Assembly (NCBI RefSeq): GCF_005222845.1
Contig: NZ_STFZ01000036.1
Coordinates: forward strand, 241,308 to 305,307
Direction of reading: 5' to 3'
Source of the DNA: Rhizobium sp. FY34
GTDB taxonomy: Bacteria; Pseudomonadota; Alphaproteobacteria; Rhizobiales; Rhizobiaceae
Length of the DNA: 64,000 nt
Within the stretch, counting starts at the first letter, position 1, and every line of letters begins with the position of its first letter. Positions 6,722-46,354 of the stretch are shown in pieces. The position numbers were made by a program, and so were the translations under genes. The notes beneath the pieces were generated by a model, which was not told where the DNA came from, ran no database searches, and saw only the letters and a list, made by a program, of their open reading frames with translations.

Positions 6722-7300
6722 TTAGTCTTCCGTGGGTTCCACGACCGGCTCCGGCACACGTTGCACGCGCTCGGAAGGATCACGACCGATTTCCGCCTTC
6801 AGCGAGATGAGGTCGATAAAGTGGTCCGACTGGCGGCGCAGGTCATCGGCAATCATCGGCGGCTGGGTTGCCATGGTGGAGACGACGGAGACCTTGCGGC
6901 CCTTGCGCTGAAGCGCCTCGACCAGCGTGGTGAAATCGCCGTCACCGGAAAACAGTACGAGGTGATCGACGGTCTCCGACTGTTCCATGGCGTCGATGGC
7001 CAGTTCGATGTCCATATTGCCCTTCACCTTGCGGCGGCCCATGGAATCGGTAAACTCCTTGGCGGGCTTGGTGACAACCTTATAGCCGTTGTAATCCAGC
7101 CAATCGATCAGCGGGCGAATCGACGAATATTCCTGGTCCTCTATCAGGGCGGTGTAATAATAGGCTCGCAGCAGGTAGCCGCGCTTCTGAAATGCTTTCA
7201 GCAGTTTGCGATAATCGATGTCAAAGCCAAGGCTTTTCGATGCCGCATAAAGGTTTGCGCCGTCAATGAAGAGTGCAATCTTCTCTCTTGGGTCGAACAT
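6722..7300 (-). CDS. NYN (LabA/DUF88) domain protein, putative nuclease
   Basis: A 192-residue protein of the NYN superfamily, a PIN-like fold linked to RNA cleavage. Acidic residues expected in the metal site are present: Asp13 in FIDGANLY, Asp97 in NMDIELAIDAM, and Asp120/Asp122 in FSGDGDF. The C-terminus (about 168-192) is acidic and probably disordered. The start has a strong Shine-Dalgarno sequence (GGAGGACAT). It is divergent from rpoZ, a neighbourhood I recall as common in Rhizobiaceae. The RNA target is unknown. Confidence 0.88.
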   Translation of the reverse strand: MFDPREKIALFIDGANLYAASKSLGFDIDYRKLLKAFQKRGYLLRAYYYTALIEDQEYSSIRPLIDWLDYNGYKVVTKPAKEFTDSMGRRKVKGNMDIELAIDAMEQSETVDHLVLFSGDGDFTTLVEALQRKGRKVSVVSTMATQPPMIADDLRRQSDHFIDLISLKAEIGRDPSERVQRVPEPVVEPTED

Positions 7301-7586
7301 ATGTCCTCCATCCCCCTAAAATACATTGGGTATCGCTCAGTATGAAATAGTTTGTCGAAACTTTACGTTTCGGGACAAGATTAAGCGCGATACATTATGA
7401 CTTATTCATATAAATTCATTTACGTGACGATTCGGAAAACTCCAAGCAACCGCAGGTTGAGTTTACTGGAGATTTTGAGGCCGTGGCTCTGCTATTCAGG
7501 GGTGGCGGAGGAAAAACTTGAATTTAGCGTTCAATCCCTGTATCGGGCATGCTAAATCCTGAAATAGCGACCGCAAAGGACAGGCA
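7301..7586. promoter_or_regulatory. Divergent intergenic region between the NYN gene and rpoZ
   Basis: This 286-base gap must hold promoters for both flanking genes. An imperfect hairpin lies at 7352-7378 (TTGTCGAAAC against GTTTCGGGACAA, two bases bulged). An AT-rich block follows at about 7381-7430. A weak candidate rpoZ promoter is TTGAAT at 7518 and TATCGG at 7541 with a 17-base spacer. No gene is visible in it. Confidence 0.4.
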
Positions 7587-8000
7587 ATGGCCCGTGTCAC
7601 AGTAGAAGATTGCATCGACAAAGTCGATAACCGTTTCGAGCTGGTGCTGCTTGCTAGCCACCGCGCACGGCAGATCTCCCAGGGCGCATCGATCACGATC
7701 GATCGCGACAACGATAAGAATCCGGTTGTGGCGCTACGCGAAATCGCCGACGAAACCCTGTCGCCCGACGACCTGAAGGAAGACCTCATCCACTCGCTGC
7801 AGAAGCATGTGGAAGTCGACGAGCCCGAGCCCGATCCGTCGAGCCTGATTTCCGCCAATGGCGGCGCATCGGCTGGTGGAGACAAGGGTCTGGACGAAGA
7901 CGACATGCCGGAAACCGTTACTTTCGACCAGATGTCGGAAGAAGAGCTGCTGGCTGGCATCGAAGGTCTGGTTCCGCCGGAAAAGAGCGACGATTACTGA
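7587..8000 (+). CDS. rpoZ: RNA polymerase omega subunit
   Basis: The 137-residue omega subunit helps assemble and stabilise RNA polymerase and forms part of a ppGpp site in proteobacteria. The N-terminal 65 residues are the conserved domain: [23 protein letters not shown] is reduced to key motifs VEDCID, RFELV, RARQI and [11 protein letters not shown]. The remaining residues form an acidic tail ([16 protein letters not shown]), typical of alphaproteobacterial omega. The start has AAGGACAGGCA upstream. It stands just before rsh, linking ppGpp synthesis with its target enzyme. Confidence 0.96.
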
Positions 8001-40616: not shown

Positions 40617-42233
40617 CTATTCCGCTGCCAGCCGCCCCGCCATGTGGCGGTTCTTCATCAGCTTGTAGACGATCGAATCGATCAGCGCCTGGAAAGAGGC
40701 GTCGATGATGTTTTCCGATACGCCGACCGTCCACCAGCGGGTGCCATCGCCATCCATGGATTCAATCAGCACGCGGGTCACGGCTTCGGTGCCGCCGTTC
40801 AGGATGCGCACCTTGTAATCCACCAGTTCCAGATCCTCTATCTCGCGGTTGAACTTGCCGAGATCCTTGCGCAGCGCCAGATCCAGCGCATTGACCGGGC
40901 CGTCGCCTTCCGCCACCGACATCACCGGCTCGCCATCGATGACAAGCCGCACCACGGCTTCCGAGACGGTCTTCATCTTGCCATTGGCATCGAAGCGCCG
41001 CTCCACCATGACGCGGAAACCATCGACGGCAAAGAAATCCGGAATGGTGCCAAGCGTGCGGCGGGCTAGAAGCTCAAAGCTCGCATCCGCCCCTTCATAG
41101 GCATAGCCTTCCGATTCGCGCTCCTTGACAATGGTGATCAGCCTGTCGAGACGCGGATCATCCTTGGAAACCTCGATGCCGCGGCGTTTCAGCGCGTTGA
41201 GGAAGTTTGATTTTCCGCCCTGATCCGACACCATGACCTTGCGGAAATTGCCGACGCTTTCCGGCACCACATGTTCATAGGTGCGCGGGTCTTTCAGAAG
41301 CGCCGAAGCATGAATGCCGGCCTTTGTGGCAAAGGCTGAGGCGCCGACATAAGGCGCCTGATGATTGGGCGAGCGGTTGAGCAGCTCGTCGAAGGCGTGC
41401 GACAGTTTCGTCAGCTCCGTCAGCCGCTCGGCATCGATCGCGGTCTCGAAGCGGCTGGCATAGGTTTCCTTCAGGGACAGCGTCGGAATCAGCGTGATGA
41501 GATTGGCATTGCCGCAGCGCTCGCCGATACCGTTCAGCGTGCCCTGGATCTGGCGCACGCCAGCCTCCACGGCGGCAAGCGAATTGGCAATCGCCTGGCC
41601 GGTATCGTCATGCGCATGGATGCCGAGGTGATCGCCCGGAATACCGGCGGCCATCACGGCCGAGACGATGGCGCGCACCTCATGCGGCTGGCTGCCGCCA
41701 TTGGTATCGCACAGCACCACCCAGCGGGCGCCGGCCTGGTACGCCGTCGTTGCGCAGGCCAGCGCATAATCCGGATTGGCCTTGTAGCCATCGAAGAAAT
41801 GTTCGCAATCGATCAGCGCCTCGCGACCTGAGGCGATGACCGCCTCGACGCTGTCGCGGATCGATTGGAGATTTTCCTCATTGGTGCAGCCGAGCGCCAC
41901 CCGCACATGGTAGTCCCAGCTTTTTGCCACAAGACAGATGGCATCGCTTTTGGATTGCAACAGTGCGGCCAGACCCGGATCATTGGCGGCAGAGACCCCT
42001 GCGCGTTTCGTCATGCCGAAGGCGACGAATTTGGCATCGCGGGTGCGCTTCTTGTCGAAAAAGGCCGTATCCGTCGGGTTCGCGCCCGGATAGCCGCCCT
42101 CGACATAATCGATGCCGAAGTCGTCCAGCAGCTTGGAGATGGCGATCTTGTCTTCGACGGAAAAATCCACGCCGGGCGTTTGCTGCCCGTCGCGCAGGGT
42201 CGTGTCGAAGAGATAGATCTTTTCCCGTGTCAT
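40617..42233 (-). CDS. cimA: (R)-citramalate synthase
   Basis: CimA joins pyruvate and acetyl-CoA to make citramalate for isoleucine. The 538-residue protein has the LeuA-like catalytic domain with LFDTTLRDGQQTPGVDFS (about 6-22, in outline) and the HAHDDTG metal motif near 205, followed by a LeuA regulatory domain (about 400-538). ATG at 42233 follows GAGAGAGG. Homocitrate and isopropylmalate synthases share this fold; the length and DTTLRDG form fit CimA. A REPIN-like repeat stands just upstream. Confidence 0.93.
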   Translation of the reverse strand: MTREKIYLFDTTLRDGQQTPGVDFSVEDKIAISKLLDDFGIDYVEGGYPGANPTDTAFFDKKRTRDAKFVAFGMTKRAGVSAANDPGLAALLQSKSDAICLVAKSWDYHVRVALGCTNEENLQSIRDSVEAVIASGREALIDCEHFFDGYKANPDYALACATTAYQAGARWVVLCDTNGGSQPHEVRAIVSAVMAAGIPGDHLGIHAHDDTGQAIANSLAAVEAGVRQIQGTLNGIGERCGNANLITLIPTLSLKETYASRFETAIDAERLTELTKLSHAFDELLNRSPNHQAPYVGASAFATKAGIHASALLKDPRTYEHVVPESVGNFRKVMVSDQGGKSNFLNALKRRGIEVSKDDPRLDRLITIVKERESEGYAYEGADASFELLARRTLGTIPDFFAVDGFRVMVERRFDANGKMKTVSEAVVRLVIDGEPVMSVAEGDGPVNALDLALRKDLGKFNREIEDLELVDYKVRILNGGTEAVTRVLIESMDGDGTRWWTVGVSENIIDASFQALIDSIVYKLMKNRHMAGRLAAE

Positions 42234-42274
42234 GTCAGTGCCTCTCTCTGGCATGTCATCTTCAGACCGCCGTT

Positions 42275-42491
42275 ACCCCCCTCTGCCCTGCCGGGCATCT
42301 CCCCCTCAAGGGGGGAGATCGGCAGAACGGTACGCTTGCCACCCCAAATCGGCCCCAAATACCCTCTGCCGTCATCCTTGGCGGTTAGAGCCATAGGGCT
42401 AAAGACTCCGCGCCTGAGAATGGCCGCTGCCAGTGCGGCAAATCGATCTCCCCCCTTGAGGGGGAGATGCCCGGCAGGGCGGAGGGGGGTA
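42275..42491. repeat. Paired inverted palindromic element (REPIN-like copy 1)
   Basis: The left arm (42275-42330) begins TACCCCCCTCTGCCCTGC, then GGGCATCTCCCCCTCAAGGGG and GGAGATCGGCAGAACGG in outline. The right arm (about 42437-42491) is its inverse but ends its inner side with AAATCGATC instead of GCAGAACGG. Each arm holds its own hairpin (TCTCCCCC with GGGGGAGA). The spacer of about 110 bases contains no gene. It lies between cimA and pip. Confidence 0.85.
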
Positions 42492-42510
42492 ACCAGGCTA
42501 CTCATCGTTC

Positions 42511-43930
<1,420 letters not shown>

Positions 43931-44410: not shown

Positions 44411-44436
44411 GCTATCGGCCTCCATTTGGACGGGAT

Positions 44437-44585
44437 ACCCCCCTCTGCCCTGCCGGGCATCTCCCCCTCAAGGGGGGAGATCGGCAGAACGGCCACCGGT
44501 TTATCTTCAAGAGAGGAACAGGAGAGCGCGGCATATCGATCTCCCCCCTTGAGGGGGAGATGCCCGGCAGGGCAGAGGGGGGTAT
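44437..44585. repeat. Paired inverted palindromic element (REPIN-like copy 2)
   Basis: The left arm (44437-44492) matches that of copy 1 through the inner GCAGAACGG. The right arm (44529-44585) is inverse and ends inward with ATATCGATC, as in copy 1. Only about 36 bases separate the arms. It stands between GFA copy B and cysS, 24 bases after the cysS stop. The order and orientation of its two arm types are the same as in copy 1. Confidence 0.87.
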
Positions 44586-44608
44586 GACCGACCACCAGGT
44601 GCAGCATG

Positions 44609-46354
44609 TTACCGCTTCACCTCCCAGGTCGTCACCCGTTCGCCGGTTGCCGCATCCTTGCCGTCCTTCAACTGGATGCCCTTGGCCAGCAGCTCATCAC
44701 GAATGCGGTCGGCCTCGGCGAAGTTTTTCGCTTTCAGCAGTTCAAGGCGTTGGTCAATTGCATATTGGACCTGTAACTCTTGTTCACCACGTTCGTTGGG
44801 ATTTAGAGCTTCAAGCCTAAAGTCTCCGTCACCGGTCAAGACAACCTGCTCGCCCTCGTTCTTGAAAACTTCGGTTATCCGATCAATCGCATTTTGATCA
44901 CCGTTGCTAAAAGAAACGCGTAAACTCTCCACCATTTCCCAGTAATTCGGGATCCGCAGGGCAGCCATGGATACGCTATCCGACAATGGTCCATTCGAAG
45001 CGAAGCTCCCAGCATTTTGGGGATTCATTAGGCTAAGGAACTGAACTGTTGAAGCAAACTGGACTGCCTCGTTTTTGTCAAAACTAAAACTCGTTCCGGC
45101 TTTCTGACGCAAAATGCTAATCGCCAGTGGCGTGTTAAGGTCTTGAGAAAGAGCTTCCAGCACTTCCGGATACGGCTCTGTCAGCCCCGCACGCATCCAG
45201 TCGCCCACAAATGACCAAGCGTTGTAGCGCGATCCTGCGTTGAAAAAACGCTCCATATCCTTCCGGGCGTCTACCAAACTAGAAACAGTGAAATCCAAAG
45301 GCTCTCTATAGTGCGTCTTTAGAAGAGCTAGTCGCAGAACACCACCGTGCCATGTGCGGCCGCCGAATTTTTCAGTTGCCAAGAGTTCATGGATGGTGAC
45401 GAAATTGCCGTCCGATTTCGACATCTTGCGGCCTTCCACCTGCACGAAGCCGTTGTGCATCCACACACTCGCCATCACATCGGTGTCATAGGCGCAGCAG
45501 GATTGGGCTATCTCGTTTTCGTGGTGCGGGAAGATGAGGTCCAGCCCGCCGCCATGGATATCGAATTCATGCGGGCGGGCTTTGCCCTTGGGCGAAAGCC
45601 TGTCCTTGATCTCTTCCCACAGATAGCGGTTGGCCATGGCCGAGCATTCGATATGCCAGCCGGGGCGGCCATAGATTGCGTATGTTTCGCCCTCGAAGGT
45701 AAATTGGGCGGCCCAGCCCGGTTCTGTATCGGCCGATTGCTTCCACAGCACGAAATCGCCGGGATTGGTCTTGTGGGCTTCCACGGCCACGCGCGCGCCG
45801 GCCTGCTGGTCTTCCAGCTTGCGTTTGGACAATTGGCCGTAATCGGCCATGGAGGCTGTGGCAAACAGCACTTCGTGGCCTTCCGAACCCTTGGCCACAT
45901 AGGCATGGCCCTTTGTCAGCAGGCGCTGGATGATCTCGATCATCTGGGCAATATTGTCGGTGGCGCGTGGCTGATGCGTCGGCTCAAGGCAGCCGAGAGC
46001 CTTCACGTCTGATTGAAATTGACTTTCCGTCTTGCCGGTGACGGCGCGGATCGCCTCGTTGAGGCTCATCGAGCCATCGGCAATCTTCGCCCCGAAATCG
46101 CGCAGTGCGCGGGCATTGATCTTGTCGTCCACGTCGGTGATGTTGCGGGCATAGGTGACGTGGGCCTCGCCATAGATGTGGCGCAGCAGGCGAAACAGCA
46201 CGTCGAAGACGATCACCGGACGGGCATTGCCGATATGGGCAAAGTCATAGACCGTCGGGCCGCAGACATACATGCGCACGTTTTCAGGATCGATCGGCTG
46301 GAACTCCGCCTTTTCGCGGGTCAGCGTGTTGGTGAGCTTGAGCATATGGCTCAT
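44609..46354 (-). CDS. cysS: Cysteinyl-tRNA synthetase with atypical C-terminal segment
   Basis: CysRS charges tRNA-Cys. The N-terminal catalytic half is standard: zinc ligands Cys31, Cys237 (GWHIECSAM), His277 and Glu281 (HHENE); HIGN at 40-43; KMSKS at 310-314. The protein has 581 residues, while the family is about 460. The extra length lies between about 332 and 531, coded by 44761-45360, where GC is about 50% by hand count against roughly 60% around. The last 50 residues (from [15 protein letters not shown]) return to the normal type. All catalytic parts are whole, so the gene is probably active. Confidence 0.92.

Follow-up and report, generated by a model that had tools for sequence, protein, structure and literature searches.

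Essential tRNA synthetases are usually held to evolve slowly, mostly by descent within their family. Genes in which a variable stretch of at least 70 amino acids lies within an otherwise conserved sequence have been described as segmentally variable (Zheng, Roberts and Kasif 2004, PMC387263); tRNA synthetases are taken up in the available part of that paper, which proposes that such stretches serve in binding. The cysteinyl-tRNA synthetase (CysRS) gene described here, cysS, belongs in this class, with a variable segment of 79-195 amino acids among conserved regions. It differs from the synthetase example in the same part of the paper, an insertion in ProRS, in that the CysRS segment is exchanged between close sister species of one family. 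Agrocin 84 offers a second comparison: according to the available text of PMC5059758, TM84 inhibits LeuRS, and the producing Agrobacterium carries a self-immunity tRNA synthetase. The likeness is that a synthetase of the same bacterial group is shaped by chemical antagonism; the enzyme there, however, gives the producer self-immunity, whereas here a single chromosomal CysRS carries an exchanged module, without a known inhibitor. Contact-dependent toxins, as the excerpt of PMC7690452 describes them, depend on EF-Tu and CysK of the target cell, and so share with the pressure that we propose for CysRS a reliance on conserved cytoplasmic proteins of translation or cysteine metabolism. A literature search of open PMC papers, as far as their text was available, found none that describes a rhizobial CysRS with an exchanged or hypervariable segment. 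We know of no toxin that docks on CysRS, none appeared among the papers listed, and neither agrocin 84 nor the EF-Tu- and CysK-dependent toxins provide an example of CysRS being attacked.

The window analyzed here is a 64,000-nucleotide stretch of the Rhizobium sp. FY34 genome, in which cysS is one open frame of 581 amino acids on the minus strand. Its parts are as follows, the names HIGN (HIGH-type) and KMSKS being our assignment for residues 40-43 and 310-314.

44609 to 46354, minus strand: cysS, cysteine--tRNA ligase (open reading frame of 581 amino acids; TIGR00435; PF01406; AlphaFold2 model matching CysRS 1li7_B at Z 43.2)
45395 to 46354, minus strand: vertically inherited core, residues 1-320, the catalytic domain up to the conserved block that ends at residue 320 (residues 1-325 average 0.87 in nucleotide identity against six close relatives)
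46226 to 46237, minus strand: HIGN (HIGH-type) motif, residues 40-43 (H40, G42 and N43 invariant in 46 chosen CysRS)
45413 to 45427, minus strand: KMSKS motif, residues 310-314 (K310, M311, K313 and S314 invariant in 46 chosen CysRS)
44750 to 45394, minus strand: replaced tract, residues 321-535 (nucleotide identity steps at both edges; GC3 0.51 compared with 0.75 in the core)
44999 to 45289, minus strand: DALR_2-like helix bundle inside the replaced tract, at about residues 356-452 (AlphaFold2 secondary structure; sub-cut-off PF09190 match; alignment to CysRS structures)
44804 to 44968, minus strand: extra domain, about residues 463-517, a probable second, divergent anticodon-binding-like domain (predicted helix-helix-strand-strand; PDB matches)
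44612 to 44749, minus strand: retained C-terminal anticodon-binding domain, residues 536-581 (mean nucleotide identity 0.83 over residues 535-581 to six relatives; invariant residues)

The protein scores 401.6 bits against TIGR00435, above the curated cut-off of 340, and resembles E. coli CysRS (1li5, 1li7, 1u0b) in its core, its bundle and its C-terminal anticodon-binding domain; it differs from the E. coli enzyme in that the bundle is replaced and that an extra domain of about 60 residues stands ahead of the canonical tail domain. The match to DALR_2 (PF09190) is 14.9 bits, under the Pfam cut-off of 22; as far as residue 452, the predicted fold nevertheless aligns with known CysRS structures. 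Against CysS_C (PF23493), residues 534-568 score 17.9 bits (cut-off 23), and the tail could be aligned residue by residue to positions 414-459 of E. coli CysRS. Besides the motif positions listed above, the core columns C31, C237, H277, H278 and E279 and the tail residues R536, D549, R552, L555 and D564 are invariant in the 46 chosen CysRS, which represent many segment types. We take these core columns, together with the HIGN and KMSKS columns, to be the catalytic motifs and the core cysteines and histidines. The core also holds short inserts in its catalytic half, at about residues 86-97 and 215-262 (46064-46099 and 45569-45712) that are patchily present or absent among relatives, with loops near residues 217-227 and 247-262.

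A whole-genome search found no second cysS in the window genome, a draft of 37 contigs that is 99.99% complete, and because the gene is single copy in so complete a genome, the window CysRS is probably functional. At E values up to 1, the sole further match was one of 11.5 bits over about 72 residues of a 986-amino-acid frame, and no silent cassettes were found in the genome with the whole protein at E 0.001 or with the segment at 1e-5. A duplicate synthetase conferring resistance or self-immunity does not fit, as these searches found no divergent second copy of cysS in the genome.

An earlier note, made from the sequence of the window, had described a low-GC segment inside cysS, and this segment is real: GC is 0.497 at 44761-45360, compared with 0.607 over the whole window, 0.588 at 45361-46354 and 0.586 at 44609-44760. 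In a 600-bp GC scan (step 20; 3,170 scanning windows; mean 0.608, standard deviation 0.029), 22 scanning windows were as low as the segment, 5 of them in cysS and 17 at 6901-7820. The latter place spans the start of a 192-amino-acid minus-strand open reading frame (6722-7300) and the DNA before it. Edges were placed against L002-L007, the six closest sequences by core among the matches listed (core identity 0.89-0.92; 494-525 amino acids). Mean nucleotide identity to these is 0.97 up to residue 320 and 0.66 from residue 321, averages 0.27 over the tract interior (residues 335-525), and jumps from 0.24 at residue 535 to 0.86 at residue 536. Because identity steps at 320/321 and at 535/536, we set the tract at about residues 321-535 (44750-45394). 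The limits proposed earlier, residues 332-531, were thus near the mark and are shifted at the nucleotide level to about 321 and 535; the left junction, which had been put right after the KMSKS loop, lies instead directly after the conserved block that ends at residue 320. What is kept at the far end is not one final helix, as had been thought, but the anticodon-binding helices and hairpin of residues 536-581. Residues at about 336-349 (HGG, KTHY) look like their counterparts in two long forms, L008 and L017, and so seem to have arrived as part of the module.

Had all close relatives carried the same 581-residue form, the form would have counted as ancestral in the earlier note. We found that form, or a similar segment, in none of the six closest relatives by core among the matches listed, whose segments are 0.23-0.34 identical to that of the window, as expected from the exchange or insertion in this lineage that the note had put forward. 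The module in the window is of a long type that is rare and that these six relatives do not have, and an ancestral long form in the window's lineage was rejected for this reason. A long form (547 amino acids) also occurs in G009, a less closely related member of the genus, with a core 80% and a segment 26% identical. The extra length is also real. The 115-120 additional residues first reported hold against a family norm of 460 amino acids, but the excess over three 494-amino-acid sisters is 87, and it consists mostly of one extra domain (about residues 463-517) ahead of the canonical tail.

An AlphaFold2 model of the whole protein, built with the 46 chosen sequences, reached a pLDDT of 88.5 and a pTM of 0.85. 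In it, the extra domain is predicted to comprise helices at 471-484 and 487-499 and strands at 502-506 and 512-516, and the canonical tail helices at 519-541 and 545-557 and strands at 560-566 and 573-579. Because the two share the same order of helices and strands, a duplication of the anticodon-binding domain is suggested. Whole-protein comparison with the PDB hardly tests residues past 453, and the extra domain was hence folded alone (residues 446-519, with eight other long forms; pLDDT 77.5, pTM 0.65), which again gave the order helix-helix-strand-strand. Of 322 PDB chains aligned to this model, the best two were CysRS C-terminal domains, 3sp1_B 427-480 (Z 6.0, a value in the range where chance arrangements occur; rmsd 3.2; 51 residues aligned) and 1u0b_B 398-461 (Z 5.5; rmsd 3.4; 59 aligned); the third match had a Z of 3.5. 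Foldseek alone placed CysRS tails 18th and 42nd (E 2.4 and 4.3; TMq 0.50 and 0.55), the best E value overall being 0.63. Profile comparison of extra domain and tail paired 17 columns in the expected register, with a score of 12.9 that 3 of 200 column shuffles matched, and Pfam CysS_C matched none of nine extra domains. From these models and comparisons, we consider the extra domain, of about 60 residues, to be probably a second, divergent anticodon-binding domain.

CysRS matches were found in 293 of the 297 genomes searched, with places given for the matches listed only. We took 144 CysRS loci from the best-listed matches (30, 6 of 80 listed, 28 new ones and 80 stretches from further matches), and the frequencies below are accordingly no unbiased census; four loci could not be split by motifs and were dropped. 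The remaining 140 sequences comprise 132 from family f1 (taken to be the Rhizobiaceae, as the nearest named relatives are Rhizobium sp., L031 and L032), six named rhizobial loci (L031-L036) and two of other families (L017, L172). BLAST clustering of the segments lumped 125 of the 140, and pairwise identities were used instead. Segment length varies from 79 to 195 amino acids in this set and tail length from 44 to 53, and core and tail are much better conserved than the segment. Among the 9,730 pairs, 751 have a core identity of at least 0.85, and in 155 of these, involving 94 sequences, the segments are less than 0.40 identical. The same holds for 6 of the 31 pairs with a core identity of at least 0.95, with tails of at least 0.84; for family f1 alone, the counts are 142 of 660 and 6 of 28. 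Tail identity is at least 0.76 in the 24 pairs that combine a core of at least 0.90 with a segment below 0.40. The most extreme pair, L230/L239, has a core identity of 0.98, a segment identity of 0.34 and a tail identity of 0.90, and similar values were obtained for L010/L012 (0.97, 0.38 and 0.92) and L187/L193 (0.96, 0.37 and 0.96).

Codon-aligned nucleotide profiles of swapped pairs step from mostly 80-100% identity to mostly 30-55% and then back; the profile of an unswapped pair, L011/L012, has no steps. Three species of genus g49, with cores 0.97-0.98 alike, carry three segments that are 0.32-0.45 alike; two of these resemble segments from other genera (0.59 and 0.56) more than they resemble one another. 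For L239, the segment of L134 from a different genus is the closer one (0.59, with a core of 0.76), and that of its sister L230 the more distant (0.34). Sister species with near-identical core and tail carry, many times over, unrelated-looking modules with sharp edges, and on these alignments the CysRS module has very probably been replaced by recombination again and again. The exchange or insertion that the earlier note had proposed for one lineage is supported, not as a one-off but as one case of a family-wide hot spot.

A core tree of the 140 sequences was built by a quick method, and 34 of its 137 inner branches are starred. On it, the 13 long-form rows, the window among them, are scattered and require 10 changes, and a low-GC segment (GC more than 0.03 below the core) requires 27. 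The window falls in a starred set of seven rows with three standard forms, three other variants and no other long form. Rows L017, L171, L169 and L117 sit on long branches at uncertain positions, and the "standard" label, a motif pattern, misses the standard-like L018, L019 and L216, so that its 16 changes on the tree are too many and do not count as evidence here. Inserts of a different kind or of greater length occur in four of the 13 long forms (L117, L170, L172 and L122).

The core of 59 low-GC variants has a mean GC3 of 0.80, compared with 0.52 for their segments; the corresponding values are 0.80 and 0.75 for 52 standard forms and 0.81 and 0.74 for the remaining 29 variants. Among the low-GC variants, segment GC tracks host GC with a slope of 0.82 (r 0.67), and segment GC3 tracks host GC3 with a slope of 0.69 (r 0.74). 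Because segment GC3 rises with host GC3, a single donor of fixed GC does not fit; the modules may have come from the hosts' own accessory pool or may have undergone some amelioration. The donor of lower GC first envisaged is therefore too simple a source: a foreign low-GC pool predicts neither the tracking of host GC nor the 29 of 88 non-standard segments that show no GC drop.

Two other synthetases, ArgRS and LeuRS, were compared in 13 pairs from 23 genomes in blocks of 40 amino acids, with the first two and the last blocks left out. The lowest ArgRS block was 72% identical and the lowest LeuRS block 68%, except in G006, where it was 48% against two relatives; in the CysRS of 11 swapped pairs, by comparison, the lowest block falls to 0-28%. 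The G006 dip (L379), at about residues 241-280 with the other blocks at 80-100%, possibly reflects a smaller segment exchange in another synthetase. Two clades served as controls for CysRS itself, genus g137, with 28 usable sequences of 30, and family f64, with 13 of 16. Of the 228 pairs with a core identity of at least 0.85 in these clades (213 in g137 and 15 in f64, the latter a weak control), none had a segment identity below 0.57, and no GC drop above 0.007 was found in either clade; over all pairs, the lowest segment identity was 0.55 in g137 and 0.42 in f64. In these clades too, the segment varies more than the core, which fits a fast but non-exchanged domain.

Within a segment type, segment dN/dS is 0.03-0.19 in 12 of 13 pairs, near the core value (one pair was not computable, three are of the standard type and some overlap in sequences), and segment dS exceeds core dS in 11 of the 12. 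Because these ratios are low, the modules are, as judged from codon comparisons, under constraint within a type (purifying selection) and change by replacement. A tRNA-Cys gene was recovered by pattern for 11 of the 23 genomes and confirmed by ARAGORN. The window genome (G000), G011, G097, G192, G267 and G320 have one identical tRNA-Cys, and their segments are 0.16-0.46 alike; G083, G306 and G183 have another tRNA-Cys in common, and G018 and G204 differ. Against the slow descent usually attributed to synthetases, then, an internal module of CysRS has been replaced repeatedly between sister species with its flanks, ArgRS, LeuRS (one dip apart) and, where recovered, tRNA-Cys unchanged.

The major identity elements of tRNA-Cys in E. 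coli and yeast are U73 and the GCA anticodon (PMC9976931, from the part available). D549 and D564 of the window enzyme, both invariant in the 46 chosen sequences, align with D436 and D451 of E. coli. We take the two E. coli residues to act in anticodon reading, presumably along with R427 and W432, whose counterparts here are L540 and F545. By this alignment, anticodon reading is likely unchanged in the window enzyme. The exchanged part is mainly the helix bundle that links core and tail. The proposal that the tRNA-recognition half had been altered consequently holds for the bundle, but not for the anticodon-reading tail, which is kept, nor for tRNA-Cys, which is unchanged in the strains compared. 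The module variants offer a natural test of how large a part of a synthetase may be swapped while tRNA recognition is preserved. Because this surface is exchanged repeatedly while the substrate stays unchanged, an outside partner is suggested.

The explanation that we find best overall has three parts. The module would likely be replaced through homologous recombination acting between the conserved blocks that flank the tract; the extra domain of the long type would likely have arisen as a duplicated and diverged anticodon-binding domain; and selection for a changed surface of the helix bundle may, with less certainty, drive the recurrence. Most simply, an antagonist, which could be an interbacterial toxin or a protein of a phage or mobile element, would dock on that surface, whether of CysRS or of its complex with tRNA-Cys, and a new module would escape it with tRNA-Cys and the anticodon-reading tail left intact. 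Taken as a whole, we think this account reasonably likely. The antagonist as the driver of exchange is a tentative proposal, on balance short of probable, and no antagonist, donor or recombination route was observed in the sequences compared. A further extension seems more doubtful to us: CysRS of the Rhizobiaceae might be a polymorphic "lock" kept in balanced polymorphism, with a widespread antagonist docking on the helix bundle and the family answering by swapping the whole module, including for a type with a second, perhaps non-reading, anticodon-binding domain. If selection does drive the exchange, the pattern indicates that CysRS of rhizobia and related bacteria is under attack by some agent, and the natural alleles offer a means to trace it.

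The module might also be swapped without any advantage, if the bundle tolerates many sequences and ordinary recombination between the conserved edges exchanges it neutrally. The conserved edges are present, conservation of the segment is below that of the core within types and in the control clades, and no antagonist was found, all of which such a neutral hot spot would accommodate. However, no exchange was seen in g137 or f64, which have the same bundle (f64 with only 15 close pairs); the segment is under purifying selection within types; GC3 falls to 0.52, compared with 0.80, in 59 of the 88 non-standard segments; and ArgRS and LeuRS of the same genomes are not so affected. We give neutral exchange a minority share of belief, appreciable and just behind that of the antagonist. 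Fast point mutation with indels, and no exchange, would explain the quicker loss of identity in the segment than in the core, seen in the control clades as well, but it is highly improbable given cores of 0.98 with segments of 0.32-0.34 in one genus, modules with kinship across genera, and step-like nucleotide profiles. Co-adaptation to a changed tRNA-Cys would suit a domain that sits between the active site and the anticodon reader; it is just as improbable, as six genomes with segments 0.16-0.46 alike have an identical tRNA-Cys, as do three others, and D549 and D564 are invariant in 46 sequences. Co-change with tRNA-Cys is thus contradicted in the 11 of 23 genomes in which the gene was recovered.

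At E. coli icd, an integrating element is known to supply a new 3' end to its target gene. A phage or mobile element that integrates in cysS could do likewise, and many viral contigs do have cysS at the contig edge (most of L270-L323). Yet the tail keeps its likeness to the tails of the recipient's relatives (at least 0.76 in the 24 pairs with a core of at least 0.90 and a segment below 0.40), inspection by eye found no integrase-like open reading frame beside cysS in the window, and a search with the segment alone found no viral relative; we regard integration as very unlikely. An assembly chimera or contamination would be easiest to imagine in a draft of 37 contigs such as the window genome, but here the segment is in frame within one contig, the long form occurs in 13 of 140 sequences from different genomes, the window included, and other types of exchanged segment are found repeatedly across many genomes, including some assembled into few contigs. 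This is the least credible of the readings, with hardly any weight. Recombinational replacement of the module, with antagonist-driven change of its surface as the uncertain part, remains our preferred account.

Candidate donors were sought among plasmids, phages and viral contigs, and none qualified. The segment matched plasmids in only four Sinorhizobium records (36.0-40.5%), and the whole protein matched 20 phage records at no more than 40.5% and viral contigs at 50% at best (best 80 of 90 matches). The segment alone had no match in viral contigs and none in PHROGs. In most of the viral contigs L270-L323, the cysS match, about 40-41% identical to the window protein, lies at or near the contig edge, which suggests a prophage boundary beside cysS in other bacteria.

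Plasmids do carry cysS in other bacteria: matches were found on 624 plasmid records, 503 of them Klebsiella by name. In one Klebsiella plasmid neighborhood (L460, NZ_CP097652.1), dksA, folE2, zigA, hisI and two repressors lie near cysS. We take this neighborhood to be a zinc-limitation (zinc-sparing) cluster, and plasmid cysS was not used as a sign of resistance. The available part of PMC4913263 mentions three CysRS genes on a plasmid. A conjugative Salmonella plasmid (L461, NZ_CP022141.1) has a full-length extra cysS, 37% identical, shortly after two annotated toxin-antitoxin pairs. In the window's own genus, one genome encodes a second, divergent CysRS (L466, G013:C10:138497-139855), 35% identical in a 501-amino-acid frame. 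Finally, between cysS and the next gene of the window, an inverted repeat at 44436-44587 consists of GCCGGGCATCTCCCCCTC and its complement; it resembles what we take to be intergenic repeat elements of rhizobia, and a similar reading occurs inside the open reading frame at 41865..42683.
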